Shown one piece after another: positions 772-34,755 of a stretch of DNA of 44,432 bases. Position 1 is the stretch's first letter. Each line of letters begins with the position of its first letter. Location: IMG/VR virus record IMGVR_UViG_3300025641_000656, positions 1 through 44,432 of that record, one strand, 5' to 3'. This DNA comes from a virus. The notes beneath the pieces are model-generated. The model was not told the DNA's origin. It saw nothing but the letters and a program-made list of their open reading frames with translations, and ran no database searches. The translations under genes and the position numbers were made by a program.

Positions 772-3700
772 ATGTCTATAAATCTCAACGTACAAGGTAA
801 TACACAGCCGCTTGAAGCGGCTGTTCAAGCGGCTGTAAACCGTATTCGCAAAACACCGATCAAAATAACGGTGGATGACAAGGGAGCTACCCAGCCGCTT
901 GGGAATATGAAGCGTGGAGCTGACGAGTTTAGCAAATCTATGGAAGCTGCTAACGCTCGTATCATTGCGTTTGGCGCGAGTATGGCGATAATCAATGGAG
1001 TAGCTGACGGCTTTAAAGCTTTAGTTAAAAATGTTGTTGAAGTCGAAAAAGCTCTTGCTGATATCAATGTAGTTATGAATTTATCTACAGCGAATTTAGA
1101 AAAATTCTCAAACGGCTTATTTAAAACCGCCAAGGAAACCGGAGCAGCTTTTAACGTTGCCGCTGAAGCGGCTACCGAGTATGCTCGTCAAGGCTTGACG
1201 ATGGAGGAGTCTTTAAAAAGAACTCGAGACGCTCTTATTTTGACTCGATTAACTGGAATGGATTCTGCAAACGCAGTAAAAGCTTTGACTGCGGCCATGA
1301 ATACTTATGGAGATCAAATAAAAGACACTACTCAACTTGTAAGTAAATTCGCTGCGGTTGATGTAAAATTTGCTGTTAGTGCAGAAGATTTTGCTGATGC
1401 GATATCTCGAACGGGTCAGGCTGCGAAAAGTGCTGGAGTGGATATTGATGAGTTGGTAGGTCTGGTTACTGCAGCACAACAAAAAACTGCTCGAGGTGGT
1501 AAAGTAATCGGAAACTCATTTAAAACAATTTTCACAAGAATAGGAAGAACAGACACTTTAAATCAATTGGAAAATCTGGGTATCGCTGTAAGAGATTTGG
1601 AAGGCAATACGATTGGCGCAAGAAGAATTTTAACCGATCTCGCTAACACTTTTGATCATCTTACGGAATCCCAAAAAGCACAAATAGCTCAGACGGTTGG
1701 TGGAGTTTTTCAAATCAATATATTAAAAGCTGTACTGAGTGACGCTGCAAAGCAAAACGGTATACTTGCAAACGCTACTCAAATCTCTGCAGGGGCCACC
1801 ACAGAAGCTATAGACAAAAACGATCAATTAAGGCAGACCATGTCTGCAATGGCCACAGAAACCGGAATAGCTTTAAAAGAATTAAGCGCACAGATTGGAG
1901 AAATCATGCTTGCTCCAGGAATGGAAAAGGTTTTGAATGTTTTCAAGGGACTGGCTGAAGGAGCAAATGAAATGCTTGGCGGTGGAGAATCCACTGGTAG
2001 CGATTTCGCTCAAGGTTTTTTAAAGGGCTTGGGTAATATCATAACTGGTCCAGGGTTGGTCGTTATTTCCGCAGTATTTATAAAGTTATTTGCTAAAGCT
2101 TTGGTTTATGCGAATCAAAGTCTGCAATCTTTAATTGGGGTAACAAGCGAAGCTCATAAACAAAAAGCAATACAAACTTCTCTTGTTACTTTATTTGGGC
2201 AAAACGCAGCGATAAGCAAGGAAATGTTGCGAACCGATATTTCAAGAACGGAAAAGGAAAAAATAATCCTTGGACTCTTGAAGGCTCAAGTTGTTGAAGC
2301 TAACATGTTGAACTCTGTATCAAAAAGTGTTGCCGCTAGTTTATACACGAAAGGGTACAATGCAAGCCTTGCTCCTCGAAAGGGAAGAGCGGGCGGACAC
2401 ATTCCAAATTTTGCAGATCCAGAACGCGAGCAAGCTGCGCGAGGTGGATATGCTGCTGGAAGTATTCGAAGTATGAATATGCCTGGCGAAGGCTCGGTAA
2501 TATATAACAGCGCAGAAAAAGTAAAGAATTTTAAGGGGATGAGTCAACCTGCGATCATGCCTCCAAAGTCAAGTAAGGCTGGAGAGAATTATCAACAAGC
2601 ATTTGGTAGTATACATGGATTTGATCCATATGCTGCGGGAGGATATATACCTAATTTTAAGAAAATTAAACCGAGAACTTCTAAGTTTACAGCTAAACAG
2701 GGAAGAGTTCAATATGGTATTAATCAAAATTCTTCTAATTATGTTGGTCTCGCCGCATCTAGAGGTTCAGATCAAATTGGTAACTATTATTATGTTGTTC
2801 CTGGTGTTGCAGATAGTGGAGTTTACCAAGCTAGGTCTGACGGATCTCCACCAAAAGGATTTACAGATATTCATGCTCCCGCTAAAGGAAAAAAGACCGC
2901 GAATCCCAATCAAGGTAAGGGCGCTAAAGTCGCTTTTGATTTTTACACCTTAGATGAATCAGATAAAAAAAGAGGCTCAAAAAGATTCGAAGACCAAATA
3001 AATGAAAAACTTCAAAATAAGGGATTTGAGGTTACTAATCAAATTTTAAATAGTTTATCCCTAGGTGATACTTTTTCTATGGATAAATCAAATATGAACA
3101 GTGATTTACCAAAAAGTAAAATGGCTGTTGTTTCGGGCCATATCTTTGAGGCTGTGGCAAAAAGCATTATACGCGGTGTGGGAGAGACCGATAAAATCAC
3201 AGAAGATCAAGGTGCAAGAATTGATTTGCCAAGAAATAAAGAATTATATAAATTGTTTGGGGTTCCTGGTAGCAAAGGTAGGAAAGGTGCTGAAGCTAAA
3301 ATAAACACAAACATAAAAAATGCTAAATCATTCGCTAGAAAAATATATGATGTTAGGTTTGGTAAAGCTGGCGCTCCTAACTTAAGCAAAACATCTGATC
3401 TAAATAAAGGTATATTGTCTAGAAAAGATGGCCGCCTTTTTGTTGGCGACAAACCATGGAGTAGTAGCAACGAAGAACAAACAACTCTTCTTCGCAAGGC
3501 AGGGTTTAAGTCTTTACAAAGCGGCAAATTTTCTAGGGTAGGTTTAAATAGTCAATTAAAATCTCACGGATACATCCCCAACTTCGCCAACCCATTATCT
3601 GATGCAATAGGTAGAGAAAAAGAAGCTGGCGTTCCTGTTTCGAAAATAAGAATTGGCTCTCATTCAGCACTAATGAATAAAAGTAATCCAATCGGTCTGG

Positions 3701-6700
3701 GCGTAACCAATACAGACGACGAACCAAATGGATTGAAAGATGTATTTGGCGCTGCAAATGGATACGTGCCGAATTATGCACCAGAAATTACAAGTTCTGA
3801 CGTGGTTGGTTATAGAGGTAGTGGTGCGCAATCCCAAACGGAGAGCAACGCTAAAAAGTATAACAAAGCTATTGCCGGTGTTATAAAAAGATTTGAAACG
3901 GGCAGGGTTCCTCATAAGAAAATGCAAGAGATGATGCAAAAACTTGGGAACAAATACAACGTAAGTTCTAGCGCTCAAGACAGAGTAGCCAAAAAAACAA
4001 ATCAATTAATTGGGACCACAGAAAAATTAAAAGCAGCTACGCAAAGAGCCGCGAGAAGCGTTGGGCTACAAAACGCAAGCTCAAGGTTTGCTGGAACGAG
4101 GGCGGGAAGAATGATTGGTAGCACTGGTGGGCAAATGGGTTTGATGATGGGCTTGCCTATGGCTGCAGGTTTTGCGCAAGACGCAATTGGGGGTACGGCT
4201 GGCGCAGCCACCGGAGGTTTTCTACAAGGGGCTGGTAGCGGAGCAGCAATGGGAATGATGTTTGGTCCGCTGGGCACAGCTATAGGAGCTACTGTTGGAG
4301 GTTTATACGGATTAGTTGATGGGTTAGGCAAGGCTGAAGAGGCCGCAATTAAAAAAGCGAAAGACGATTTAGACTATTCAAAAAGCATGGGGTCCTCTTT
4401 AGTTTCTCTTTTCTCAGATTTCCCAGAAGCTAAGAAACATTTAAAAGATTTTAGAGAGGGCTACAATAGACTTAATCAGGAAATAAAAAAAGAAAATTCA
4501 AAAACCATAAACGTCGCAAAAGGCTTTGATCCTTTAACAAGTTCAACGATTTACAAAAAAGAAAAAGATCCCGAAGCTCAAGGAAAAGTTAAAGTCATGA
4601 ATGAAATTATGAATACTAATCTGGATTCTAAACTCTCAGACGCCTTGCGCGCATTACCTTCCGATTATACTTTTTCTGCAAAAGGAGCTGAGGCAGGCAG
4701 CGAATTTAAAGGGACGGGAAAAGAGTATGCCAAAGAATTAGAGAAAGCTGATGTATCAAGAAAAAAAGTCATGTTTGAGTCTTTTATGGCTGGGGAAAGA
4801 AAAGCTGAAAATGAATCTGCTGATTTAAGAAAAGAGGAAGTTCGCGGTTTGATTGTTAAGTTAAACCATCAGAAAGCGATGTTAGTTTCACAGCAAGAAT
4901 CCGCATTGGCTCAATTAAGAATAAAAGATAAGTATCGGCAAATTTCTGAAAATTTAGATTTTCAAGAAAAAGTGATGGGTGGCGCGATAACCGAACAACA
5001 GAAAGCGCAAATAAAATACAAAAAAGCCCTGAATTCTGCCGCTGAAAAATTAGATTCTTCTCTTCGGGGTGCAGACTCTAGTCTTAAGGAGGGCTTAATG
5101 ACTTTAGTGAAACGATCTCCTAGTATGCAGAGCTCGGTCAGGAGTGACTTAGCTAAGAAGATGGGCATCAAGGCTAGCGAAAAAAACAGAATATCAAGAA
5201 TAGATGTTACAAAACCTTACTCTAAAATGAGCGGACAAGAGCTTGTGGGTAAATTAAAAGAGATAGATGGAGTTTCCCCTCAAGATCTCGCAGCTATAGA
5301 ATCTCTTGTGTACAAAAAGCGGTCTGACGAAACTCTAGCAAGACAAAGTAAAATATCACAAGCAGGTTCGGCTAAGAGAGTATTGGGCCAAGATCTTTAT
5401 GTTGCGACAGAAAATAAAATTATAAAAGATTTAGAAAGAAAAAACCGCATGTCTTCAGAAGGCCTTCAGTCTTCCCAGAAAATCCGAGGTTTTACCGAAC
5501 AAGTTGCCGCAGCAAGAAGGTTGAATGCTGTAGGCCCAGGATATCAAACCGGTAGAGAAAGAGAAAGTTTTGCAATGTCCGAGAAAAGATTTAAATTAGA
5601 ATCTAAAATCACAACCCTCGAAGAAAATCAAAAAGACAAACTCGCCGGACTGGATACAAAAAAGAAACGGGACGAACTTAAGGAAAAAAGGCTTGAGGGT
5701 ATGGTGACTGGCCAAATAACACTAAAAAGCGAGGCTGATTGGGAAGAGTATGATGCGCTTTTAAATTCGCAAGAAGAAAGAAAAAAGAACCTAGACGAAA
5801 TCGAACAAAAAATAAAAAACATAAACGCAGAGACAAAAACAGAAATATCAAGCGCCCAAGAACTCTTAGAGAAAGAGAAGGAAAGATTAAAACTTAAGAG
5901 GGAATACGAAACCGGACCTGGCGCAATGCGTAATGGAGCTAGGGACGCTCAAAAAAGAATTGTCGAGCAAGCTGAAACGATGGAGTTTAGACTTGGTGGT
6001 GAATTAACAAATCAATTTAGAAACGGCCTTGTTGACGGTATGCAAGCAGCAATAAATAAAGCCGATGACTTGAGCGATGTTATGAATAATATTGCAATGA
6101 ATTTTCTTGGAGCAATTCAACAAGCATACCTTGGCAAAGCCGCCGATGCAATCGTTGGAGCTTTACCGTTTTCTAGCGGAGGAGGAGTAAGAAAATATTC
6201 TAAAGGAGGCGGAGTTCCTGCAATGGTAACTAATGGCGAATATGTAATGGGTGGCGACGCTGTGAAGAAATACGGTGGCGGATTTATGCATAGATTAAAC
6301 GCAGGCGGAAAACTTCCAGGTTATTCAACTGGAGGTAAGCCAGACGAGCCTCAGCCAGGATCCGCTCTTGCTGCAAACTTTGGAGGAGGAGAAGGTTACA
6401 ACACAGGAAGAAGATATCAATCTCAAGCAATGTCTGGGTTTTTCTATAGCGGACAATCTGGAAACCTAGGACTTCAAGAGGATACTCAATATACAAAAGG
6501 AATCATTCAAGAAAGAATGAGAAAAGAGGCTGAGAAAAAAGCCAAAAAAAGAGCTTTAATGCAAATGCTCGTAGGTACCGCTCTGAGTGTTGGAATTGGA
6601 AGTATGGTTTCCTCTGGCCTTGAGGGCCTTGCTGAATCTGGAGCACTAGGAGAAAAATCAATGCTTGATTCTTGGGGCAAATCTTCTGGCATAGACTCAG

Positions 6701-7284
6701 CCGCAGTAAATCAAACAATGCTAGAAACCGGCATGTCAAGAACTGAGGCGATGAGCATAAATCAACCCTTTGAAAACGACTTTGATTTTGGCTCAATCGT
6801 TAAAGACAATTACAGCCCTTTTAGCCCAACGTCTATCCAGGAGTCAAGAGCTGTTTATAGAGGAGGAAAAATAAATGGTTATGCCAACGGCGGCCACATA
6901 GCTGGCAAGTCTGGCATCGATCAAATTCCCGCAATGCTCAGCGAAGGAGAATATGTAATTCGAGCAAGTAGCGCTCGACAACTTGGCAAGCCAATGCTCG
7001 ACCGAATAAATGCAGGAAAATTTAATGATGGTGGAGCAGTGACCCCCTTAACAGAAAACTCAGAAACTGGAACTTCTGGCGGAAATACAAATAATATTAA
7101 TATAACGGTTAATATGGACAAGGGAAGTGGGAAATCAGAGAAAAAGGATGATAAAGCAGGAGCCAATCCAAAAGACTCGTCAGAAGATCAAGAAAAAAGC
7201 ACGCAGTTGGCGGAAAAAGTAAAACAACAAGTTATTTCTGTGATAATGGACGAGCAGCGACCAGGAGGCTTGTTGAGTGACTGA
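772..7284 (+). CDS. Tail tape measure protein with embedded nuclease-like domain
   Basis: This 2170-residue protein sets tail length and is expected to be ejected with the DNA. Residues about 60-400 match the TP901-type tape-measure core (the stretch around ISRTGQAAKSAGVDIDEL and the FTRIG and VGGVFQ motifs). Motifs GHIPNFA (542), GYIPNFK (624), GYIPNFA (933) and GYVPNYA (997) follow; residues 630-932 form an insertion with a PD-(D/E)XK-like signature (E793, D818, E841-x-K843). About 1100-1185 is a Gly/Ala/Met-rich hydrophobic zone able to enter a membrane, and about 1620-1715 is a charged coiled coil. Near the C-terminus two copies of a GEYV...AV..LG...L..INAG element occur (about 1820 and 2060), common in tape measures, followed by a Ser/Gly/Lys-rich tail. 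The start follows a weak AAGG inside a hairpin. It is followed 2 bases later by the next tail gene. Confidence 0.95.
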   Translation: MSINLNVQGNTQPLEAAVQAAVNRIRKTPIKITVDDKGATQPLGNMKRGADEFSKSMEAANARIIAFGASMAIINGVADGFKALVKNVVEVEKALADINVVMNLSTANLEKFSNGLFKTAKETGAAFNVAAEAATEYARQGLTMEESLKRTRDALILTRLTGMDSANAVKALTAAMNTYGDQIKDTTQLVSKFAAVDVKFAVSAEDFADAISRTGQAAKSAGVDIDELVGLVTAAQQKTARGGKVIGNSFKTIFTRIGRTDTLNQLENLGIAVRDLEGNTIGARRILTDLANTFDHLTESQKAQIAQTVGGVFQINILKAVLSDAAKQNGILANATQISAGATTEAIDKNDQLRQTMSAMATETGIALKELSAQIGEIMLAPGMEKVLNVFKGLAEGANEMLGGGESTGSDFAQGFLKGLGNIITGPGLVVISAVFIKLFAKALVYANQSLQSLIGVTSEAHKQKAIQTSLVTLFGQNAAISKEMLRTDISRTEKEKIILGLLKAQVVEANMLNSVSKSVAASLYTKGYNASLAPRKGRAGGHIPNFADPEREQAARGGYAAGSIRSMNMPGEGSVIYNSAEKVKNFKGMSQPAIMPPKSSKAGENYQQAFGSIHGFDPYAAGGYIPNFKKIKPRTSKFTAKQGRVQYGINQNSSNYVGLAASRGSDQIGNYYYVVPGVADSGVYQARSDGSPPKGFTDIHAPAKGKKTANPNQGKGAKVAFDFYTLDESDKKRGSKRFEDQINEKLQNKGFEVTNQILNSLSLGDTFSMDKSNMNSDLPKSKMAVVSGHIFEAVAKSIIRGVGETDKITEDQGARIDLPRNKELYKLFGVPGSKGRKGAEAKINTNIKNAKSFARKIYDVRFGKAGAPNLSKTSDLNKGILSRKDGRLFVGDKPWSSSNEEQTTLLRKAGFKSLQSGKFSRVGLNSQLKSHGYIPNFANPLSDAIGREKEAGVPVSKIRIGSHSALMNKSNPIGLGVTNTDDEPNGLKDVFGAANGYVPNYAPEITSSDVVGYRGSGAQSQTESNAKKYNKAIAGVIKRFETGRVPHKKMQEMMQKLGNKYNVSSSAQDRVAKKTNQLIGTTEKLKAATQRAARSVGLQNASSRFAGTRAGRMIGSTGGQMGLMMGLPMAAGFAQDAIGGTAGAATGGFLQGAGSGAAMGMMFGPLGTAIGATVGGLYGLVDGLGKAEEAAIKKAKDDLDYSKSMGSSLVSLFSDFPEAKKHLKDFREGYNRLNQEIKKENSKTINVAKGFDPLTSSTIYKKEKDPEAQGKVKVMNEIMNTNLDSKLSDALRALPSDYTFSAKGAEAGSEFKGTGKEYAKELEKADVSRKKVMFESFMAGERKAENESADLRKEEVRGLIVKLNHQKAMLVSQQESALAQLRIKDKYRQISENLDFQEKVMGGAITEQQKAQIKYKKALNSAAEKLDSSLRGADSSLKEGLMTLVKRSPSMQSSVRSDLAKKMGIKASEKNRISRIDVTKPYSKMSGQELVGKLKEIDGVSPQDLAAIESLVYKKRSDETLARQSKISQAGSAKRVLGQDLYVATENKIIKDLERKNRMSSEGLQSSQKIRGFTEQVAAARRLNAVGPGYQTGRERESFAMSEKRFKLESKITTLEENQKDKLAGLDTKKKRDELKEKRLEGMVTGQITLKSEADWEEYDALLNSQEERKKNLDEIEQKIKNINAETKTEISSAQELLEKEKERLKLKREYETGPGAMRNGARDAQKRIVEQAETMEFRLGGELTNQFRNGLVDGMQAAINKADDLSDVMNNIAMNFLGAIQQAYLGKAADAIVGALPFSSGGGVRKYSKGGGVPAMVTNGEYVMGGDAVKKYGGGFMHRLNAGGKLPGYSTGGKPDEPQPGSALAANFGGGEGYNTGRRYQSQAMSGFFYSGQSGNLGLQEDTQYTKGIIQERMRKEAEKKAKKRALMQMLVGTALSVGIGSMVSSGLEGLAESGALGEKSMLDSWGKSSGIDSAAVNQTMLETGMSRTEAMSINQPFENDFDFGSIVKDNYSPFSPTSIQESRAVYRGGKINGYANGGHIAGKSGIDQIPAMLSEGEYVIRASSARQLGKPMLDRINAGKFNDGGAVTPLTENSETGTSGGNTNNINITVNMDKGSGKSEKKDDKAGANPKDSSEDQEKSTQLAEKVKQQVISVIMDEQRPGGLLSD
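2395..3780 (+). repeat. Four dispersed G[YH][IV]PN[FY] motifs in the tape measure
   Basis: Coding motifs lie at 2395-2415 (GHIPNFA), 2641-2661 (GYIPNFK), 3568-3588 (GYIPNFA) and 3760-3780 (GYVPNYA). The spacings are 82, 309 and 64 residues, so they delimit modules rather than form a tandem array. The last 64-residue module has its own Ile/Gly/Asn-rich pattern around residues 955-990 (a NP-x-GLGV element). I remember similar motifs in large virion proteins of marine phages, but cannot verify that here. Confidence 0.7.
3121..3330 (+). other. PD-(D/E)XK-like nuclease core inside the tape measure
   Basis: Residues 784-853 read as a helix with GHIFE (E793), then a strand with ARID (D818) and a strand with GAEAK (E841-x-K843). 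The order E, D, ExK is the catalytic signature of the PD-(D/E)XK nuclease fold. The domain lies between two GYIPNF motifs at 624 and 933. Only the pattern is seen. No structure or homology could be checked, so activity is unproven. Confidence 0.45.
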
Positions 7285-17457: not shown

Positions 17458-17460
17458 GAA

Positions 17461-20400
17461 ATGCTATCTACCGCAATAGGAATTCAGTTTGATGTAAACG
17501 ATCTCAAGGCTAATTACGAGGTCATTGGCTCGTCCGACAATTACTCATTTCAATACAACCTAGGGAAAGGGAGTAAGCTTGTAGATTTTGAAGGAGAAAC
17601 CGCGCAGAAGACCATATCGCTGAATGGTAATTACGGTACATTTTCAATCAGAATATTTGCAGTAAGCGAGGTAGGCATTCGTTCTGAATTTATTGAGGAA
17701 AAAATATCGATTAGCCCACCGTTATTTGATGATACTTTTACCTTTTCTGAAATCAAAGTTTCAAATCTTCCAGAAGATTCAAACATAGGAAGCACTATCG
17801 AAATAGAACCTTCTGAGAGCGGTAATTTATTAGCAGTTAATTCTGAGTATATTAATAGAAATGTCGAAATAGAATGGAGACTATCTCCCCCTCCAGGCCA
17901 CGCGAAGGAAGGAAGGTCGTTGGGCAACGAACTGCTCAGCGATAAGCTTTTAAGAGACTTTTCTCTGCAAATAAGAAACACAGAAAATGGCGATGTAATC
18001 TCTGATACACAATTGAATAGCTCGGTAGCTCTTCAGTCAACTCTCAATACCGCATCGGTATCTGATATGATGGACGCTTATACGGGTTTTTCTTTTATAG
18101 TGTCAAATGACACAATAACAGAATTAAATCTAGACAGAACTCTTGCGCTAGAGGTTGTCTCTAACGACGCGTTTGGTCGCCAAGCAACTGGAGTGTTAAC
18201 TGGAATAAATTATTTACCTACAGTTGACTCATTAAGCTATAATTTAAGGGGGGCAAAAATGTCTTTTAGTTGGTCCTCTCAAGATACCGATTTTTATGCA
18301 GCTCAAATCTCATCTCTCGCTATTCCTGGCGACGAAGAAATATACGATCCTTATAACCTTCAACAAAGCATAGATCATTACGAAAGCCTGAGCAGGGCCC
18401 CTATTTGGGAAAAGCACAATAATTATAGAGTCGGAGATAAAGTCGTTCACAATTCAGTTGTATTTGAATGTATACAAAATTACATATATTCCAGCTTTCC
18501 AGATGTAAATACAAGCGACACTAGCTACTGGACAAATATAGGGCCAGTAATAGATCATTCTTTTACTCAAGAAAATATAACAGAAAATAATAAAGAATTT
18601 AATCAAACATGGGGGTATAATTATTATTATTCTTTTGTGCCTATTGATGGTTATGGTACAGGAGTAAGAACCAATCTAACTGAAACAGGTTTACATCCAG
18701 GAGGTGCGCTGAATCCTTTTAAGTCTGATGTAAAAATAGATAATTTAAATTTTATAGAAAGAGATGATGATTTAATTTTTCGTTGGAATGTAACTGATCA
18801 GGATAATAATTTAGTAGATTTAAATCAATATAAATTTTTAGTTGGGTCTACTGATAAACCTTCTATTCTTGGAATAAGTGGATCTTTATATGATAGTGAT
18901 ACAAATTTATTTCTAACTGGAATAACTGAAGGTTTAAATTCTAGAACTTCTGTTACTGAAAATGGAGTTGAAAGTATATCCGAAGATCTTCCTGGCACAA
19001 AAGTTTTTGAAACTTATGAATATACAAGAGAAATAAATAATTCAATTTATAAAGTAGGAGGTTTTCCTGCGCATCAAGATTTTTCTTATTCTGGTCAGTA
19101 TAATAATGGTGACCATGTAATATTTGAAAACTCATTATACAGAGCTACAAGCGAAACGGCTTTAAGCTCCGATAAGTTGATGACCCCTCTTGTCTCGCCT
19201 TGGAGTCCTGGCATAAATTATTTATTCAGAACCGGCCTTCATCACTCTGATAGTTTCTCTTATGCTAGCGGAGTTTACTCTGTGTTTGGAACAGTTAATA
19301 ACGAAATTATTGGGCCTGATGCAAGCGATGTTATCGGACTATATAATGAGCTTGAAAGCTATTCTATTGGCGATTTAATTATATCTCCAAACGGTAATAC
19401 GGAAATCTATAAGGGGGGAAAGTTTTTCGATGTTGGCGATAGCGTTTTATACGAGGGGTCTTTATACACATGTATTATTCAGCAGGAAAGCTCTGATTAC
19501 ATATCTCCAGGCACAGGAATAAATCATTGGAAAACCGCTTCAGCTTTTTCAAACGTTTCTGCAGACATTTATAAAGCTATAGCTGCAGTACCACAATCTT
19601 CAGAGATACTTCCCTCGACAGGGTATACCCATTGGCAAGTTCAAAACCCAGAGACATCTAATAAATATTATTTACTCGCTGAAAATTATGATTTTCCGAT
19701 TCGTAATTGGTCTCAGCTTGATGATTTTTCTAGCGCAGATTTTGTTGTATATGCTAATGATATATGGAGCGGGGTCGATTCGAGCGGCCCAAACACCCCT
19801 GCAGGATCAAGGGTTCCAAACTTAAGTAATAATAGTTATTGGGCTAATACCGATAACCAATCGAGCGACTTCTCTACGAGTCACCAAGTTGGAGATAAGG
19901 TATTCTCTAACGGAGCTATATATAAATGTTTAGCTAACAATCCGACAGGAGCGCCTCTTGAAGCTGTAGTTGACAGCGCTTCACAAATAAACTCTTCATA
20001 CCAAGCCTCTCAGTGGATTCCTTATTGGGAGTTAAACACGGGCTTTGACGATAGAATTTTTAAACACGAAGGGATTCCAGAAAGCGGAAAAAGAAGCGTC
20101 GGCCTTGAGTTGGCGATTTTAAGCCCTTTGGGTCAAATTTTAAATTCAAGAAAGATCGTTGGTAATAACCCAGAGCCTAGTATATTACCTCAAGGCTTTC
20201 AAGTCGACTCCTTGAGCAATGTCACCCAAGTTCATTTTAATTTTAATTATGCTTATGGCTCAAGAGAACAAACAACAAAGATTCAACTCTACAGATCTAG
20301 TGATCCGGTTTTTTCAATACTAGATTCGAATGGTTTTCCTGGTTCTGGGGCAGGGTCTTTTGTTTCAGAAATATTGGGGCCTGGGGACTCCACTTTTGGG

Positions 20401-23400
20401 GAAAATATAACATCAATTACAGATTCGCCTCCGATACCAAATATTCCGGGTTTGGGACATCAAATAACCGGTTATTATTACAAGCTTCTTCCTTTTGACT
20501 CTTTTGGTAGTGGCGACTTATTTAACGTAACAGATAATCAAGGAAGTCTTGAGCGGGTTTTGGTTTATCCTCATGGGTACAATAACCAGAACGAAAATGG
20601 ATACATGGGGCCAGTTTTCTCAACAACAGAAGATGCGATCCCTGGCCCTGTTAAAGATTTTAAGGGAGATACGGCTTTTAGGAATTATTTCTTGAATTGG
20701 AAAATGCCTGATGCAGAATTTAATTCTGCAAATAACATAATAAACACTTCTCCAAACGATATAAGCCATTACGAAGTTTGGGAGTCGGAAGATAACTACC
20801 TTTATTTCGGAACTGAGGATACGACTCTCGACGAAACAAGAAATTTATCCGGATACAGAAGAATAACTGGAGACCTAACCAGTATCGGTCCAATACCCTC
20901 AGAGATTAATGACCCAGCTTCGGGAATAACCAACGCAACAAACGTTTTAAATATTTCAGCAATATCTCCAAGCGTGCAAGTAACGCATCAAGGAGAGCCT
21001 AATGATAAAAGATATTTTTGGGTTAGATCTGTGGATCACGCGGGTAATAAAGGTCCGTTTACTGGCGACGCTAACCTAGGATCCTCTAATGATATCATAG
21101 GTTTGGACTTGACCTTGGGGCAGGCTAGAACCACAGATGTTTCGGATTTTGAGCAAAACATAACCCAAACATTTCCAAACACTCTAGCTTTAGTTCCAAA
21201 CAACCCTTTTACAGCTAATCAGCCATACGGAGGGGAAGTTTCGTGGGACCGACATTTTGTATATAATGACGGAGTTGGTTATGTTATTGGGGGTAGCGAC
21301 ACTCACGATCTGAAAACTAGTCAGGGATTAAGTACAGCTAAATATATTTATTGGAAGAGCGGTGATATGTCCGCCTTAACGGCAGAACAGTACTCGATGT
21401 TGGGGCTTGCTGCTCCTGGAGATAAGGTTGTCCGATTGATTGATGCGGAGATAGATGGGGCACAAAATATAACCAGTAATCAATTTTCTATCAAAGAAAC
21501 GGATTATGATTTAGGAACAAACAACCAATACAATAATCATTATATACGCTTTAAGAATGGGCTGCTAGACACTCAAGAAAGAAAAATATCTAATTATCAA
21601 AGATTTTCTAATTACGCAACAATAACCCTAGACAGATCATTTTCTCAACCCCCTTTAAATGGAGATGGTATAGAAATTCTGGAAGAGGTTGCAGTAAGTT
21701 CTGCCATCACGAATCCTCTTCGCAGTATTCAATTCTCTGGGCAGTATAGGGTTTCTGATTACCACCCAGCTGGAGAAGGAGAAACAAGCGACCCGTCTGC
21801 TTACGCAGGGCCAGACATGGATTCGGAAAAACCAAGCCTGCTTGATGATAATGATTTTATTATTGCAAGAAACGCGGGGGGCATACCAACCCCAATGTGG
21901 CACGCTTTTGCGAACGCAACAATAGGTACCGCTCATATAGAAGAAGCCGCAATAACTAATGCAAAAATACATAATTTAACGGCTGATAAAATAAGATCTT
22001 CTGTAATACAATCTCAAGATATTCAGGTGGGTGGAGACGCTAACAGCGGACAAATCAGAAGCGCTGGTTTTGGATTGTTAAATAATTCCGGTACTCGGGG
22101 GTATGATTGTGTGGACGCTCCTGGAGCGGGTTTCGCGATCAGTGGAAACGGTTCTTTTATTTTTAAAACAGAAAGGGGTAAGTTGTTTTTTGAAGAGGAC
22201 GAATTAACTATTCACGGAAATATAAGACAAAAGGACGGCTCCGAGTTGACCGTAATGTCAATGAATGCAGAACCCTCGGTTTTTAATTACGAAGAGACTG
22301 CAGATGGCATTTTTAAACCCGAGCTAAATCAAACTTCAAACATTACTGTAAGATTTAATAATAGCGATATTACCGAAAACGATGTTAGATTCAAAATGGA
22401 ACTTCCTGATGGAACTAATGTTTTTAATTATACTGACTATTCAAATGGTTATAATACTCATGGCTTTGAGTATCAGCCAAACAATACTTATTTTAATTCA
22501 GACACTCAAGTTGCAACTGCTACGTTTAAAGTTGGAAATAAAGAAACCAACACCGCAGGTTTTGATAAAATCATTCACGGAAATGATGATATTATTGACT
22601 TTCAATCTGTTATTATATACGCTTCTGGTATAGGCACAAGCACCGAACATTCAACAACAGTAAGTGTGCTTGCCAATGGAGCTCCTGGACCAACAGGAAA
22701 AACACCTGTTTATAGAGGCGTGTGGGATTCCACAAAGAATTACATCGGCATGGAGGATGGAATTCAAGGGTCCGACACGGCAGAGGAATTGAGAGGAGAT
22801 CTAGTCTATTACGATAATCCCTCATCTCCAGCAGGAGGAAATGGGCATCATTATATAGCTATGAAAAATAGCGGTCCGTCGAGCTTGGTTGTAGCTCCAG
22901 GAACGCATGCTCAAACAGACGATTATTGGAAGAAATTCGGAGCCGAATTTCAAAGCGTGGCAACTAATTTACTGCTTGCGGACAATGCGGTCATAACTCA
23001 TAGCTTGACTATGGGAAGTAGCGACGATGATAATCCAGCAACCAATGGAGCGGGAGGATTAATTCAGAGTTCAGATTTTGTTGGAGGTTTCGATGCAGAT
23101 GGATCTCTCTCTGCAAGCGAAGATTATTCCATCGCAGGTTTTAAACTTCATAAATCAGCAACCCCCCCTAATGATGTATATTTTGATGTGGGCGGTCCAG
23201 GGGTCAATTACCACTCAACAAGTAATCCAGATGATTATAGTTATATAAGGTACGGGTCCGCTTCTAAAAAAATAGAAATTCAGGGATCTTTCGTTAACAA
23301 TTCTAGTCGGGAAAGCGTATCGTTCGCCGCAACTACCTCCACCGATTCTCAAGCAACGTTTATAGGAGGGGGCTACGAAAACGAAATTCACAAGACAGCT

Positions 23401-24210
23401 TCAAACCTAAATAGTTTGGGTTCATCAATAGTTGGAGGAGGCCTTAATAATATCACTGGAAGATTTTCTTTCGTAGGCAACGGTTACAACAATAACGTTG
23501 GGGATAATTTTTCAGCAATAGTAGCCGGTTACGATAATTCCATGCCTGATATAGATATAGATAATAACGGGGCGAACATTATTGGGGCTGGATCTAAAAA
23601 CAAAATTGACGGGGGCTCTCAGCAAGGGGTCTTTGCCGGAAGGAATAATAAAATTATCTATAATCCCCCTGTACGGGATTTCGGCACTTACATCAATAGT
23701 GTTTGGTCGAGTCAGCAAAGAAGGGTTGTTATTGGTTCTGATTTTTATATTTTAAATACAAACCATCTCGGAGGAGGATCTTTAAATCCTGAAATTACCG
23801 CCAGTACACCCGTGGGCCTTTCCACCGCTTGGAGCGAAGGTTATTATGTGGATAATGTTTGGTTTTGCGATAGACTCGCAGCTCCTACTCAAATGTTTAT
23901 GGGGAATAATGCTCATAGCAATCATTGGGTTTATGCTGAAGATTTTTTAAATATCAGCGGGAAAGATTATTGGTTACTTTATTTTCCTGATTTTGGATCT
24001 AAACCAGTTACCTTTTGGGGCTTTATAGCTCCCTTGGCCGCCCATGCTCTAGGCGGATGGGCTTATTTTGATCCCATAAGAAGTCCGACAAGTGAAGGTT
24101 TCTGGCTTTGGTTTTCAGGCGTTTCTAGCTGGGTTTTTATATACAACACCTCTGCAGACGCTGGATTTTATTACATAAGCACCACCCAAACAACAGGTTA
24201 TATCCCTTAA
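17461..24210 (+). CDS. Giant tail fibre / J C-terminal extension
   Basis: This 2249-residue modular adhesin continues gpJ. Residues 1-100 look like an FN3 domain remnant, and another FN3-like unit lies around 1060-1200 (ISHYEVWES to YFWVRSVDHAGN). Six Tyr/Trp elements of the type Y-x2-GD-x-V-x-Y-x-G-x2-Y...P...W occur at about 315-358, 541-580, 650-700, 741-800, 801-860 and 1751-1825; they resemble carbohydrate-binding module 5/12 repeats. About 1481-1505 has the AITNAKIHNLTADKI motif frequent in J/fibre C-termini. About 1961-2070 are YadA-head-like SIVGGGLNNIT repeats. Residues 2121-2245 are a W-rich module. No Shine-Dalgarno precedes the ATG. It is in frame with J across TAA GAA. About 18550-19130 is very AT-rich (19% GC by hand at 18721-18840) against 50% at 19141-19200. 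Confidence 0.9.
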   Translation: MLSTAIGIQFDVNDLKANYEVIGSSDNYSFQYNLGKGSKLVDFEGETAQKTISLNGNYGTFSIRIFAVSEVGIRSEFIEEKISISPPLFDDTFTFSEIKVSNLPEDSNIGSTIEIEPSESGNLLAVNSEYINRNVEIEWRLSPPPGHAKEGRSLGNELLSDKLLRDFSLQIRNTENGDVISDTQLNSSVALQSTLNTASVSDMMDAYTGFSFIVSNDTITELNLDRTLALEVVSNDAFGRQATGVLTGINYLPTVDSLSYNLRGAKMSFSWSSQDTDFYAAQISSLAIPGDEEIYDPYNLQQSIDHYESLSRAPIWEKHNNYRVGDKVVHNSVVFECIQNYIYSSFPDVNTSDTSYWTNIGPVIDHSFTQENITENNKEFNQTWGYNYYYSFVPIDGYGTGVRTNLTETGLHPGGALNPFKSDVKIDNLNFIERDDDLIFRWNVTDQDNNLVDLNQYKFLVGSTDKPSILGISGSLYDSDTNLFLTGITEGLNSRTSVTENGVESISEDLPGTKVFETYEYTREINNSIYKVGGFPAHQDFSYSGQYNNGDHVIFENSLYRATSETALSSDKLMTPLVSPWSPGINYLFRTGLHHSDSFSYASGVYSVFGTVNNEIIGPDASDVIGLYNELESYSIGDLIISPNGNTEIYKGGKFFDVGDSVLYEGSLYTCIIQQESSDYISPGTGINHWKTASAFSNVSADIYKAIAAVPQSSEILPSTGYTHWQVQNPETSNKYYLLAENYDFPIRNWSQLDDFSSADFVVYANDIWSGVDSSGPNTPAGSRVPNLSNNSYWANTDNQSSDFSTSHQVGDKVFSNGAIYKCLANNPTGAPLEAVVDSASQINSSYQASQWIPYWELNTGFDDRIFKHEGIPESGKRSVGLELAILSPLGQILNSRKIVGNNPEPSILPQGFQVDSLSNVTQVHFNFNYAYGSREQTTKIQLYRSSDPVFSILDSNGFPGSGAGSFVSEILGPGDSTFGENITSITDSPPIPNIPGLGHQITGYYYKLLPFDSFGSGDLFNVTDNQGSLERVLVYPHGYNNQNENGYMGPVFSTTEDAIPGPVKDFKGDTAFRNYFLNWKMPDAEFNSANNIINTSPNDISHYEVWESEDNYLYFGTEDTTLDETRNLSGYRRITGDLTSIGPIPSEINDPASGITNATNVLNISAISPSVQVTHQGEPNDKRYFWVRSVDHAGNKGPFTGDANLGSSNDIIGLDLTLGQARTTDVSDFEQNITQTFPNTLALVPNNPFTANQPYGGEVSWDRHFVYNDGVGYVIGGSDTHDLKTSQGLSTAKYIYWKSGDMSALTAEQYSMLGLAAPGDKVVRLIDAEIDGAQNITSNQFSIKETDYDLGTNNQYNNHYIRFKNGLLDTQERKISNYQRFSNYATITLDRSFSQPPLNGDGIEILEEVAVSSAITNPLRSIQFSGQYRVSDYHPAGEGETSDPSAYAGPDMDSEKPSLLDDNDFIIARNAGGIPTPMWHAFANATIGTAHIEEAAITNAKIHNLTADKIRSSVIQSQDIQVGGDANSGQIRSAGFGLLNNSGTRGYDCVDAPGAGFAISGNGSFIFKTERGKLFFEEDELTIHGNIRQKDGSELTVMSMNAEPSVFNYEETADGIFKPELNQTSNITVRFNNSDITENDVRFKMELPDGTNVFNYTDYSNGYNTHGFEYQPNNTYFNSDTQVATATFKVGNKETNTAGFDKIIHGNDDIIDFQSVIIYASGIGTSTEHSTTVSVLANGAPGPTGKTPVYRGVWDSTKNYIGMEDGIQGSDTAEELRGDLVYYDNPSSPAGGNGHHYIAMKNSGPSSLVVAPGTHAQTDDYWKKFGAEFQSVATNLLLADNAVITHSLTMGSSDDDNPATNGAGGLIQSSDFVGGFDADGSLSASEDYSIAGFKLHKSATPPNDVYFDVGGPGVNYHSTSNPDDYSYIRYGSASKKIEIQGSFVNNSSRESVSFAATTSTDSQATFIGGGYENEIHKTASNLNSLGSSIVGGGLNNITGRFSFVGNGYNNNVGDNFSAIVAGYDNSMPDIDIDNNGANIIGAGSKNKIDGGSQQGVFAGRNNKIIYNPPVRDFGTYINSVWSSQQRRVVIGSDFYILNTNHLGGGSLNPEITASTPVGLSTAWSEGYYVDNVWFCDRLAAPTQMFMGNNAHSNHWVYAEDFLNISGKDYWLLYFPDFGSKPVTFWGFIAPLAAHALGGWAYFDPIRSPTSEGFWLWFSGVSSWVFIYNTSADAGFYYISTTQTTGYIP
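23821..24195 (+). other. Tryptophan-rich module at the end of the fibre
   Basis: Residues about 2121-2245 of the fibre are packed with Trp/Phe/Tyr (VWFCDR, HWVYAEDF, YWLLYFPDFG, GGWAYFDP, GFWLWFSGVSSWVF). It follows YadA-head-like repeats and ends at the stop codon; similar head repeats resume in the next gene. The module may have been inserted there. Confidence 0.55.
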
Positions 24211-24214
24211 TATC

Positions 24215-24847
24215 ATGCCAATTCCAAATTCTTCCCCTCCATCAGCTCCTTCATCAAGTGCATCCGCTTCCGTTAATTATGTAGCTTCCCCACAAGACAC
24301 TACTTTGTTTGGTGGCGGATTTGATTCTGCTTGCGCTATATTTTCTGGAGAAAGCAACGAGATAATAAATTCAAGAAGATGTTCGATCTTGGCAGGATCC
24401 AATAACACGATAGATGAAAAATACAACACCCATATAATAGGGGATTTTATTGAAGCTGATGTCGATAGCGCTTTTTATATAGGCTGCCTAAATGGATTAT
24501 TTTCTATTGGTGATGTAGTGGCTTATCATTCATCAGACGAAAATCTAAAGGATAATATAAAAAATATAAAAAACCCTTTGTCCAAAATACTATCCCTTGA
24601 CGCTGTAGAGTTTGACTGGAATAATAAACAGTCCACCCATAAGGGTCACGACATAGGCTTGATCGCGCAACAGGTAGAGCTTATTGCTCCCGAGATCGTC
24701 ACCACAAGAAGTAGCGGGTATAAAGCTATTAAATATGAAAAATTAACCTCTTTGCTTGTTGGCGCAATAAAAGAACAACAAGAGCAGATTAATGTTTTAA
24801 GCGACAGGGTTGAGAGCTTGCTAAAAAAGCTAGACTCTATGAGTTGA
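24215..24847 (+). CDS. Fibre tip protein with S74 intramolecular chaperone
   Basis: This 210-residue protein starts with a Ser/Pro-rich linker and two or three YadA-head-like units (SILAGSNNTI, THIIGD), continuing the repeat type found at the end of the preceding fibre. The C-terminal part from S107 is a peptidase S74 / endosialidase chaperone domain: SDENLKDNI with the expected Ser107-Lys112 dyad, GHDIGLIAQQVELIAPEIV, then YEKLTSLLVGAIKEQQEQI and a coiled-coil end. Such domains trimerise beta-helical fibres and cleave themselves off just before the serine. It starts 4 bases after the fibre stop, in another frame, without a Shine-Dalgarno. Its stop overlaps the convergent gene by 11 bases. 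Confidence 0.88.
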   Translation: MPIPNSSPPSAPSSSASASVNYVASPQDTTLFGGGFDSACAIFSGESNEIINSRRCSILAGSNNTIDEKYNTHIIGDFIEADVDSAFYIGCLNGLFSIGDVVAYHSSDENLKDNIKNIKNPLSKILSLDAVEFDWNNKQSTHKGHDIGLIAQQVELIAPEIVTTRSSGYKAIKYEKLTSLLVGAIKEQQEQINVLSDRVESLLKKLDSMS

Positions 24848-25640
24848 TTACTTTCATTAACACTCTTGACTCTGATGGCGGTATATCAGAGTAACTCAAC
24901 CACTCTTTAACTGAGTCGTTTTTATATTTTCCGCTCTTCCACCAATCCCTAAGTATCACTTTAAACTCTTCAAAATTAGAACAGTTTAATTTGTCGCTCA
25001 CAAGAGACTCTATCATGGAGGATGGAGTTAGCGACCCACTCGAGGAATTAGTTGATCCTGTTTGGCTGGATTTATCTATTTCGTCGTCCCCTACAATATG
25101 AACGTTTAGGAAATTTCTTACGCACCTAACGAAAGCTCTATTGCAGGCTATGGTCTCTAAGAACTTAGTCGCAAAGCTACTAGTGTTATCTAAAGTGGCG
25201 TTAGCCATATCCTGAAAGATCACTGGTTCCCCGAAAGTTTCATAGTTTGGTAGGAATTTCATTCTGCATACCACGGCAACATGATTTAACTCACACCTAA
25301 CTGTTTCATACGCTACATCTGAAAACCCTCTTAATTTAGCTAACTCTTTAATCCCGCTAAGTTTTATTAATAATTGATAATCCTTCAGCCCTATTATAGA
25401 TCTAGGTAGATCTTTTTTTCTTAAACTGAACCAAGATTTATTTGGAAAGAGGTTTTCGTCTTTAATCATAGCTCTCCAATTCACAGAGCCATCCTCCGAG
25501 AATTCGTAATCTACATTATCAAGTAATCCAAATTCATTTCTAAGAAATTTGCCTGGACCGTCTTTGTAGTTTTTGATATAAACTAAATTACTTTGTTCTT
25601 CGTTTTCTGAATTATTTTCTGATGTCTTTGTTTTTACCAT
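24837..25640 (-). CDS. Unknown protein, possibly Rad52-like/recombination-associated
   Basis: This 267-residue protein is the last gene of the leftward operon. I do not recognise it with certainty. The central part (about 85-185) has a beta-rich stretch (YETVRCELNHVAVVCRMKF), then a Thr/Ala segment and a helix of the type ETIACNRAFVRCVRNFLNV. That layout recalls phage annealing-type proteins in which DNA-binding strands are followed by an A-x-NRA-x3-R-x2-R helix. A Ser/Gly linker at about 193-205 separates a C-terminal domain rich in Trp/Lys (WWKSGKYKNDSVKEWL). The upstream gene overlaps it by 29 bases. Function is low confidence, but the gene itself is solid. Confidence 0.75.
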   Translation of the reverse strand: MVKTKTSENNSENEEQSNLVYIKNYKDGPGKFLRNEFGLLDNVDYEFSEDGSVNWRAMIKDENLFPNKSWFSLRKKDLPRSIIGLKDYQLLIKLSGIKELAKLRGFSDVAYETVRCELNHVAVVCRMKFLPNYETFGEPVIFQDMANATLDNTSSFATKFLETIACNRAFVRCVRNFLNVHIVGDDEIDKSSQTGSTNSSSGSLTPSSMIESLVSDKLNCSNFEEFKVILRDWWKSGKYKNDSVKEWLSYSDIPPSESRVLMKVINS

Positions 25641-26799
25641 GATTTTTGTCGTTATAAATTTTTAGAGTATCAATTTCTTCCCAGAATTCAGGGCAGTCTA
25701 TAACTTGGTCATGTTCTCCTTCGAGCTCATTTTTCCAAGCAGCCTTACTGCTGTATATTTGTCCTCCTGATATGATTTTCATTGAATTTTTATAACGACT
25801 ATTATTACATAGTTTTTCAGAATTGTCAAGATCTTTTTTAGTTTTTTCTTTTAATAAAGTAATCGGCCAGTCGAAGAATTTTAATCTTAGTTCATTTATT
25901 ATACTTTCATCTTTGCATAATAGATTGAATCTAACGCCTCCTTTTTCTAGAGATTTAAAATAACTTTCTTTGCTGTCGTGTGATACGAAATAATTTATTC
26001 TGTTTATATTTTTACGTATAACATCTAAGTATCTAACTTTCATTGGTTTGTCGAGAAATATATTACATTTTCTATCGTATGCCCATTTTGCTATATTTTG
26101 CTCGTCAAAACATTCATGACCCCATATGTTAACGGGTTGACCCTTGGCAAAGCTTGCGGGCATTATATGGTTGGGAACTACGGAAATAGCTGGGATGTGG
26201 TATTGAGGCCCTAAATGTAGAGTTTCTATTTCTGAAATGGTATTTTTGATTTTTAACAATTTTAAAATAGACGAAGCTATTTCCTCAGGTTTAATTAAAT
26301 TCACCATCTTCGGCGCTTCACTGTCAGAAAACGACGGCTTTAGCCCGTTCCTGTGGGACTCGATAAGTATCTGGTTTTCTTTGTCTCCCCAATATGGACC
26401 ACAACACTCTTTAAATAGTACGCTATATAGGCACACTATTTTTTTATTAAAGCCAGAGGCTACATGAGTGCTAAATGAATCATTCCCAAAATGCAAAAGC
26501 GAATTCTGTATGATATATGCGGATTGTTTTATATTTGTTCTTCCGTGCAAATGCTCGCAACCCCTGATTGATTTATCTTCTTTTCCGCCTATTTGTATAA
26601 CCTTAATTCCTTCGCTATTTAAATGAGGCAGAATCATTTCCATTACGTCATTATAGTAGTCGTAATTCTTTGCTTGCATTCCACTGCTCGCATGAAGGGT
26701 TATGTATTTGTTTTCGGCTATGGGGTAAAAGCAAGTCTCTATGTGGGGCTTATCTATTTTAACTCCACACGATAAGGCGTATTGTTCGATTAAGTGCAT
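25612..26799 (-). CDS. C-terminal half of a split GT9 glycosyltransferase plus extra domain
   Basis: Residues 1-170 of this 395-residue protein match the donor-binding half of GT9/ADP-heptose:LPS heptosyltransferases (ITLHASSGMQAKNY, IKVIQIGG, then FGNDSFSTHVASGFN and KKIVCLYS). The acceptor half with MPQSIGDI lies at the end of the upstream gene product. The two genes overlap by 10 bases in frames that differ by one base, and reading across gives an uninterrupted GT9 (FNL then MHLIEQYALSCGV). Residues about 195-390 form an additional domain of unknown function with several Trp/Lys-rich strands. It may work as a two-chain enzyme or be the product of a recent frameshift. Confidence 0.85.
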   Translation of the reverse strand: MHLIEQYALSCGVKIDKPHIETCFYPIAENKYITLHASSGMQAKNYDYYNDVMEMILPHLNSEGIKVIQIGGKEDKSIRGCEHLHGRTNIKQSAYIIQNSLLHFGNDSFSTHVASGFNKKIVCLYSVLFKECCGPYWGDKENQILIESHRNGLKPSFSDSEAPKMVNLIKPEEIASSILKLLKIKNTISEIETLHLGPQYHIPAISVVPNHIMPASFAKGQPVNIWGHECFDEQNIAKWAYDRKCNIFLDKPMKVRYLDVIRKNINRINYFVSHDSKESYFKSLEKGGVRFNLLCKDESIINELRLKFFDWPITLLKEKTKKDLDNSEKLCNNSRYKNSMKIISGGQIYSSKAAWKNELEGEHDQVIDCPEFWEEIDTLKIYNDKNHGKNKDIRK

Positions 26800-33864: not shown

Positions 33865-34755
33865 TTATTTTCTATTTAATATGAATTTTTCAAATAGTAT
33901 TTTGTCACATTTTTCTATATTTACATATTGGTCCCAGAAGTTTATTGCGCTGTTCCTTATTTTCTTGTAGCTGTCATCTTCAATAGAGAGAAGTTCTATT
34001 GGGTCTATAGTTCTTCTAACACACATAGAGTCCCAGCTGACCTCGTCCTGAAATGGGTAATCATTCATGCCTGAAACTATAGGAACTGTTCCCGACATCA
34101 TTGATTGATAGAGCCTAAATGAACTACTTCCCGCCCCTCTAGGAGCAAATGAAAACTTAGAAGCAGATAATCTTTTGCAGAAATTTTTATTTAATTTTAT
34201 TCTTTCTTCTTTATCTTTTATATGCCAGATAGGTTTTGTTTTCTCTTTGTCGAACTTTGGTAGGTTGTAGTTGAATATTTTATCTCTATTGGCGTAACCT
34301 GTTTGACCTGTGAAGCAAAAGTTATTTATTTTGTTTGAGGCTCTACATTCTTTTATGAAAAAAGCATCTTTAATCATTTCGTATTCAAAATGCCTCATAG
34401 TTAGAGGTATTGGTATTATTTTTCTGTGGGAATTCTCTATAGACCCCATCAATGGTTGGCATATGAATTTAGTGCAAACGCTATCTTTGTAGGCGAAGCT
34501 TGGGTTGTCGTGCATCGCTAAACAAAAACATTTATCTCCGTATTTTTTATATAAATCTGTGTTTGATAGTCTGTCAAAGTCTCTATTGCATTCTAGATAA
34601 TCTAGATGTAATAATATCGCATCTGCTTCGTTATGTTTTTCTGTATAATCTATGCGGTCTAGATTATGGGAAAATGGTCTTCCTAGTATTGGGTCGTGTA
34701 AGGTATCTTCGCTTCCATTGATTACCGATACTTTTATTCTAGAATTCATATCCAT
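33865..34755 (-). CDS. Exostosin-like glycosyltransferase (GT-B)
   Basis: This 296-residue protein has a C-terminal half with SKFSFAPRGAGSSSFRLYQSM followed by GTVPIVSG, a hallmark of exostosin/GT47-like proteins where the donor sugar nucleotide binds. The N-terminal half (DAILLHLDYLECNRDFDRL) is the acceptor lobe. It starts at MDMNSR, with another Met two residues in. The ATG lies inside the upstream sulfotransferase gene (17-base overlap), and 23 bases separate it from the next gene. Confidence 0.8.
   Translation of the reverse strand: MDMNSRIKVSVINGSEDTLHDPILGRPFSHNLDRIDYTEKHNEADAILLHLDYLECNRDFDRLSNTDLYKKYGDKCFCLAMHDNPSFAYKDSVCTKFICQPLMGSIENSHRKIIPIPLTMRHFEYEMIKDAFFIKECRASNKINNFCFTGQTGYANRDKIFNYNLPKFDKEKTKPIWHIKDKEERIKLNKNFCKRLSASKFSFAPRGAGSSSFRLYQSMMSGTVPIVSGMNDYPFQDEVSWDSMCVRRTIDPIELLSIEDDSYKKIRNSAINFWDQYVNIEKCDKILFEKFILNRK

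Follow-up and report, generated by a model that had tools for sequence, protein, structure and literature searches.

A motif-bordered slot for exchangeable cargo, mostly nuclease-like by signature, in phage tape measure proteins

Tape measure proteins leave the virion and help phage DNA to cross the inner membrane. Phages inject a few proteins together with their DNA, and which ones is usually learned case by case. This study concerns a tape measure gene in 44,432 nucleotides (nt) of virus DNA (IMG/VR record IMGVR_UViG_3300025641_000656, positions 1 to 44,432), hereafter called the window. In the encoded protein, repeated motifs of the form G[YFH][IV]PN[FY] border a variable cargo module bearing a nuclease-like active-site signature.

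Metal-dependent nucleases of the PD-(D/E)XK type have an active-site signature consisting of a helix-borne E, a D and a [DE]xK followed by a conserved K or Q. The cargo module resembles them in this order, and differs in having no detectable sequence or fold match to them, in a helix within the 23-residue gap between D and [DE]xK, and in being embedded in a tape measure. The tape measure of lambda-type siphophages, gpH, likewise has a PF10145 region adjoining M-, L- and J-like tail genes, whereas the window's protein has a motif-bordered cargo slot. In proximity-labelling work, lambda gpH was linked during injection to ManZ, a protein of the inner membrane (PMC13190303), and a glycine zipper, which some tape measures also have, is described as necessary for entry of the DNase effector Tde1 into target cells (PMC10240207). 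Polyvalent proteins of phages and conjugative elements likewise unite several effector domains in a single polypeptide, for which delivery along with the DNA has been suggested (Iyer et al. 2017, PMC5512222); here the carrier is a tape measure with a repeated border motif, and the main text of that article does not mention tape measures. The MuF polymorphic toxins of temperate phages also join a conserved phage part to toxin domains, with delivery by the phage proposed (PMC5576092), but here the variable domain is internal, lies in the tail tape measure and has no linked immunity gene that could be found. Tme, from Streptomyces contractile injection systems, is a tape-measure relative with an endonuclease and predicted transmembrane helices (PMC11126660); it belongs to a bacterial injection system, its EndA-like domain (DRGH, H-N-N) is C-terminal, and no motif-bordered slot is noticeable in the available part of that account.

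The tape measure gene and its bordered slot

The window comes from an uncultivated phage whose tail genes are of the lambda type, and it contains a portion of the tail region. Its tape measure gene is an open frame that matches 13 PHROG tape-measure families, and both a PhageMin_Tail/TMP domain and a position ahead of the tail-tip genes are present. The main features of the slot region are as follows.

772-7284, plus strand: tape measure gene, 2170 amino acids (aa), with PhageMin_Tail and with lambda-type tail genes downstream
1126-1704, plus strand: PhageMin_Tail domain PF10145, residues 119-311 (Pfam, E-value 7.6e-29)
2395-2412, plus strand: motif 1, GHIPNF, residues 542-547
2413-2640, plus strand: module 1, 76 aa, conserved in close relatives, in a cluster of 38 modules of 74-78 aa
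2641-2658, plus strand: motif 2, GYIPNF, residues 624-629, the 5' border of the swapped cassette
2659-3567, plus strand: cargo module, residues 630-932, 303 aa, with a PD-(D/E)XK-like active-site signature
3568-3585, plus strand: motif 3, GYIPNF, residues 933-938, the 3' border of the swapped cassette
3586-3759, plus strand: module 3, 58 aa, a conserved small family, NPxGLGVxNTxDEPxG by eye
3760-3777, plus strand: motif 4, GYVPNY, residues 997-1002
4102-4386, plus strand: glycine-zipper-like segment, residues 1111-1205, with 14 of the protein's 38 GxxxG

A preliminary description, made from the sequence of the window, had proposed that four G[YH][IV]PN[FY] motifs divide the tape measure into modules. 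The motifs are present at residues 542, 624, 933 and 997, and identity among close relatives breaks exactly at them, so that they stand at fixed cassette borders and not at random positions. When all six frames of the 44,432 bases were searched with G.[IVL]P[NG][FYL], these four came up together with one extra match, GKLPGY at 6307 in the same gene. Chance occurrence was ruled out, as none of 2000 shuffles of the tape measure protein contained a motif.

Relatives were collected by scanning IMG/VR with the first 541 residues of the tape measure, which gave 42 loci and, with the window, 43 tape measures (the N-terminus set; it includes identical contigs, L006 and L007 being the window itself, and L037 and L043 are without a start). 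The motifs occur in all 42 loci. In most relatives the first lies at residues 540-548, the second at 620-628 and the third at 867-940, the last spread arising because the module between motifs 2 and 3 varies in length; in the more distant L040-L042, L046 and L047 the first motif is found at 579-621.

Among 33 of these proteins (duplicates included; L006, L007, L034, L037, L040-L043, L046 and L047 left out), the part ahead of motif 1 is 75-100% identical, yet the cargo is less than 30% identical in 460 of 528 pairs. The window and L008, for example, are 99% identical ahead of motif 1 and 20% in the cargo. The borders of the exchange were located in 11 close pairs, picked by the analyst for similar N-termini and not mutually independent. 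Around motif 2, identity is 53-60 of 60 residues before and 2-6 of 40 after; around the motif that opens module 3 it is 0-8 of 40 before and 42-50 of 50 after. A second break follows the last motif in nine of the 11 pairs (2-9 of 40 residues), while two show none (35 and 40 of 40). One pair, L027 and L045, is 99.6% identical over the opening 1600 nt of the gene and agrees at 40 of 40 residues past the last motif, yet its cargo has been exchanged. These comparisons show that whole domains are exchanged in frame at a motif-bordered slot between the N-terminal domain and a glycine-rich, membrane-type segment, which has 14 GxxxG within 95 residues C-terminal to the slot. A conserved carrier with an exchanged domain, as in polymorphic toxins, is present by the same comparison.

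A cargo 77% identical to that of the window was found in L187, from a metagenome-assembled genome (MAG) of Flavobacteriaceae. Synonymous divergence (dS, NG86) between the two is 0.61 in the cargo, 1.15 in the 25 codons before motif 2, 2.06 in module 3 and 1.78 in the C-terminal part, values above 1 being rough. Since dS in the cargo is below that of the flanking parts, the cassette has probably moved between lineages. The ratio of nonsynonymous to synonymous divergence in the cargo is 0.27 by NG86 and 0.17 by YN00, the latter estimate covering the cargo alone, which shows, for this one pair of relatives, a cargo domain under constraint.

The motif was also traced independently of the N-terminal sequence. 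A separate scan for DNA encoding GYIPNFA gave at least 119 stretches, and all counts for this wider set rest on the matches listed. Of 113 motif-bearing frames at least 200 aa long, 102 qualify as tape measures through an N- or C-terminal profile or a C-terminal pattern, and nine of the remaining 11 are open-ended fragments. Two long frames, L069 and L157, carry their motif pair close to the C-terminus and nowhere else (residues 1480 and 1531 of 1697, and 1057 and 1108 of 1277, respectively); L157 was not called a tape measure by the profile and pattern test. Module 3 (48-78 aa) is represented by 42 modules in the N-terminus set, where it is the last module ahead of the last motif, and by 87 distinct copies in the wider set.

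Active-site signature of the cargo module

Cutting between successive motifs in 156 proteins yielded 341 distinct modules, after modules below 25 aa and exact duplicates had been dropped. Single-linkage clustering placed 91 of them, 199-449 aa long and including the cargo of the window, in one cluster, and its 69 less similar members were aligned (alignment A1). Counts given here rely on that alignment, the regular expression for the signature being loose. The profile of this cluster is matched by five further modules from outside it.

The preliminary description had named E793, D818, E841 and K843 as nuclease-like residues of the module between motifs 2 and 3. They stand exactly at these residues, in the following columns.

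3136-3138, plus strand: G789 of GxxFE, column G in 69 of 69 modules
3148-3150, plus strand: E793, acidic residue of the helix predicted to open the signature, column E in 66 and D in 3
3223-3225, plus strand: D818, predicted metal-binding aspartate, column D in 69 of 69
3292-3294, plus strand: E841 of [DE]xK, column D in 35 and E in 34
3298-3300, plus strand: K843 of [DE]xK, column K in 68 of 69

In the column of K857, K occurs in 58 modules and Q in 11, which gives the near-invariant order GxxFE, D, [DE]xK, K/Q. The alignment is otherwise highly diverged, with a mean column identity of 11%, and 67 of the 68 other modules are merely 11-27% identical to the cargo of the window. Among its 303 columns D818 nevertheless ranks first in conservation, G789 second, K843 third, E793 fourth and E841 ninth. 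The named residues are thus conserved among homologues, and this was a fair test because they had been chosen beforehand from a single sequence. Of the features that define PD-(D/E)XK membership, the catalytic residues are found here as D in 69, [DE] in 69 and K in 68 of the 69 modules, preceded by an acidic residue (E in 66, D in 3) in a predicted helix, which spans residues 152-173 in a model of the window's module (model 1) and 110-126 in a model of the L150 module (model 2).

The signature module is present in all 43 tape measures of the N-terminus set, duplicates and window included: in 39 by the A1 profile, which was built partly from these proteins, and in four as a diverged GxxFE-D-ExK module. 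In the wider set, 63 of the 78 distinct slot regions counted as complete match the cargo profile. The 15 others comprise some cut fragments, while others have a diverged signature (four with GxxFE-D-ExK) or a different cargo.

Other cargo, occurrence and neighbouring genes

Modules may follow one another in a row, with up to five in the slot regions examined and six in L067, L159 and L166. Some are of other enzyme classes. A motif-bordered staphylococcal-nuclease (SNase) module at L142:8760-9344 exceeds the Pfam cut-off (E-value 1.9e-9), as does a GNAT-like module at L098:2246-2656, while a second GNAT-like module at L093:259-696 and a cluster of 14 modules with a P-loop-like stretch (E-value 0.006) fall below it. 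By eye, L097:2622-3200 is kinase-like, L145:678-1334 ADP-ribosyltransferase-like, and L082:2209-2721 and a module of L078 HAD-like; the Pfam scan returned no kinase, ADP-ribosyltransferase or HAD family for these modules. PADLOC gave single weak rows and nothing more for 62 other modules. In many uncultivated phages, then, the motifs delimit exchangeable cassettes, and enzymes of other types are bracketed by them too.

In 84,980 bacterial and archaeal species genomes, scanned with the strict form AAxGYIPNFA alone, three stretches were found, in one Verrucomicrobiales MAG and two Flavobacteriaceae MAGs; their frames read as tape measures by eye. The cargo profile occurs in one of 397 genomes of the family of genome G014, on the tape-measure contig itself. 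In 50,697 records of named phages, the cargo, the module 3 region and two other slot regions had no tblastn match, while the N-terminal parts matched 99 and 102 records, none of them reaching 60% identity. Neither the motif strings nor the arrangement of tape measure and enzyme was found in the literature searched, which leaves most subscription journals and preprints uncovered; the string 'ipnfa' led to unrelated papers only.

Downstream of the tape measure lie homologues of minor tail proteins M (PF05939) and L (PF05100), then a J-like protein (PF13550), and further on a CBM_5_12-bearing protein and an S74 chaperone. G001, the record that holds L008, has a swapped cargo, yet its gene just ahead of the tape measure and the next six behind share 96-100% identity with those of the window. 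Over the shared 44 kb, and with the tape measure set aside, identity is 95-100% in 27 of 33 genes. The other six, less similar, do not adjoin the tape measure and lie at about 17458-24847 (85% and 62%), at 33868 (91%), at 35966 (88%) and from 42355 (73% and 48%). Leaving aside these last two genes and the tape measure itself, the tail-tip and S74 chaperone region at about 17458-24847 is the least alike part. Glycosyltransferase genes occur in the window at 25612-28697, and the relative G001 (L169) has, by eye, a long row of glycosyl- and sulfotransferase-like genes.

Explanations for the slot

On balance, the locus is probably an exchangeable slot for injected effectors, mostly holding a viral PD-(D/E)XK-like nuclease. 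The tape measure would double as a carrier of injected enzymes, the cargo riding in the tail tube as part of it and leaving the virion ahead of or together with the DNA. Injection is inferred from the link between gpH and ManZ, the Tde1-type zipper near the slot and the endonuclease precedent of Tme. In the infected cell the cargo would be an active nuclease, and its target, whether host or competitor nucleic acid or the RNA or DNA of a defence system, may differ between hosts or rivals. A target varying in this way would explain why the whole group carries a cargo that is nevertheless replaced again and again. The motifs may serve as flexible joints or as docking or processing sites, letting foreign domains be tolerated without harm to tail assembly.

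Several observations weigh against this account, beginning with the fold. AlphaFold models reached a pLDDT (predicted local distance difference test score) of 77.7 for model 1 and 89.3 for model 2. Near the signature, model 2 has a helix carrying the E, a helix, a short strand at the D, a helix, the [DE]xK strand and a long helix; a strand at [DE]xK is thus predicted, but there is no clear first strand between the E helix and the D. No PD-(D/E)XK match was obtained with Foldseek against PDB or with VIA for either model, nor in BFVD for model 2, even at a pLDDT of 89. At an E-value below 1, neither model found a counterpart among solved structures, nor model 2 among the viral models of BFVD; the best Foldseek E-values were 2.0, 1.5 and 1.7, and the best VIA Z scores 3.5 and 3.7. 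None of the 69 cargo modules has a Pfam family, and a PHROG search of the cargo modules gave two single weak rows. Mrr_cat was the sole known nuclease family compared profile to profile, and hhalign against 30 of its sequences stayed at control level (E-values of 0.39-0.6 against 0.47-0.94 for reversed or unrelated controls). Of seven hmmsearch alignments with Mrr_cat that were inspected, just L156 and, in part, L130 were in register. A PDB profile search returned ribosomal eS1, a lectin and a designed chain at E-values of 0.9 or worse, which were not taken as relatives, and a PDB search with two individual modules of canonical appearance by eye yielded nothing of use.

The proposal of a PD-(D/E)XK nuclease in the preliminary description is therefore borne out in its residues, near-invariant in 69 modules, and not in its fold. 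Because fold matches are absent and the Mrr comparison failed, membership rests on the active-site signature, and the label 'PD-(D/E)XK' is a statement about that putative site. The nuclease-like reading is well supported by the signature, though not by the fold; the domain could belong to the PD-(D/E)XK group in strongly altered form, or it could combine a similar site with another fold.

The setting raises further difficulties for a nuclease effector. Part of the tape measure past the slot varies just as much as the cargo, so that variability is not special to the nuclease module.

3814-5898, plus strand: second variable region, residues about 1015-1709, from alignment blocks against L008, L009 and L036

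Its identity per block to these three relatives is 0-64% and mostly below 50%, against 94-98% at residues 1751-1900. This region may match host inner-membrane partners. No co-varying immunity gene adjoins the tape measure in the sequence compared, namely window genes up to 17457 against the flanks of the 42 loci (at most 8 kb per side), 44 kb against G001, and the upstream genes of G001 against five relatives. PF00303 and PF01555, pointing to DNA modification, were unmatched in nine relatives whose contigs are possibly incomplete. With neither an immunity gene nor these families found, self-protection of the phage is left without explanation. The 42 scanned proteins of G001 and the window include, among the families listed (25 of 49), single matches to DNMK, dUTPase and dCMP deaminase, which prove nothing.

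The presence of the module in every one of the 43 tape measures that make up the N-terminus set is what would be expected of a core function, such as trimming or releasing the end of the phage's own genome in packaging, tail joining or entry, and a virion-associated nuclease of restriction-endonuclease fold that is needed for packaging, T4 gp4-like, has been described (PMC7824862). A housekeeping enzyme for DNA ends, however, should not need swapping, and the cassettes of the window are unrelated to those of L008, L009 and L036 where neighbouring genes are 94-99% identical; the slots of other phages, moreover, hold other enzyme classes. A role on the phage's own DNA is accordingly improbable. 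The apparent movement of the cassette between lineages, together with the tape-measure gene of ICP1 that is interrupted by a homing endonuclease (PMC10448857), might suggest a homing-type selfish cassette driving its own spread through tape-measure genes. Such a cassette is very improbable here, given that it is in frame with protein motifs on both sides and that no empty allele exists among the 43 tape measures. An intron or intein was rejected: seven sources including the window had no Rfam match and so no known intron family, and the first cassette residue is A in 52 of 69 modules (next N, S and V), unlike an intein. The lowest probability falls to a purely structural module without catalysis; the lack of a fold or family match to a known nuclease would fit it, but a spacer would not keep E, D, [DE] and K, and these charged residues are among the most conserved columns while the rest diverges.

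A different proposal concerns the motifs themselves, which might be protease sites of a polyprotein, the cargo being cut free after ejection. The exchanged unit does have a motif on each side, for polyvalent phage proteins, separation by peptidases of their own has been proposed (PMC5512222), and a subtilase (PF00082, E-value 7.5e-46; by eye, L167:1124-2296) is matched in one of the 42 scanned proteins of G001 and the window, which makes it a candidate protease if the motifs are cut. As to an embedded peptidase like that of polyvalent proteins, Pfam finds no peptidase family in the window's tape measure, the short conserved modules are motif-flanked as well, and the data are equally compatible with docking or flexible joints. 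Cleavage at the motifs is consequently conceivable but doubtful.

The preferred reading, an injected-effector slot, can be extended, with some reserve, to a large group of uncultivated phages that would use the tape measure as a general delivery port with G[YFH][IV]PN[FY]-marked slots, any enzyme placed between two motifs being carried in the tail and injected. The commonest cargo would be a phage nuclease family retaining just E, D and [DE]xK, perhaps of a new or strongly altered fold, and directed against nucleic acid specific to the host or to rivals. Beyond this one module, the alignments reveal a more general feature, a motif-bordered, exchangeable cargo slot in tape measures. If these interpretations are true, siphophage tails would be shown to carry exchangeable enzymes, the slot-marking motif would let injected effectors be read directly from metagenomes, and the arrangement could offer a natural design for protein delivery via the tail tube.

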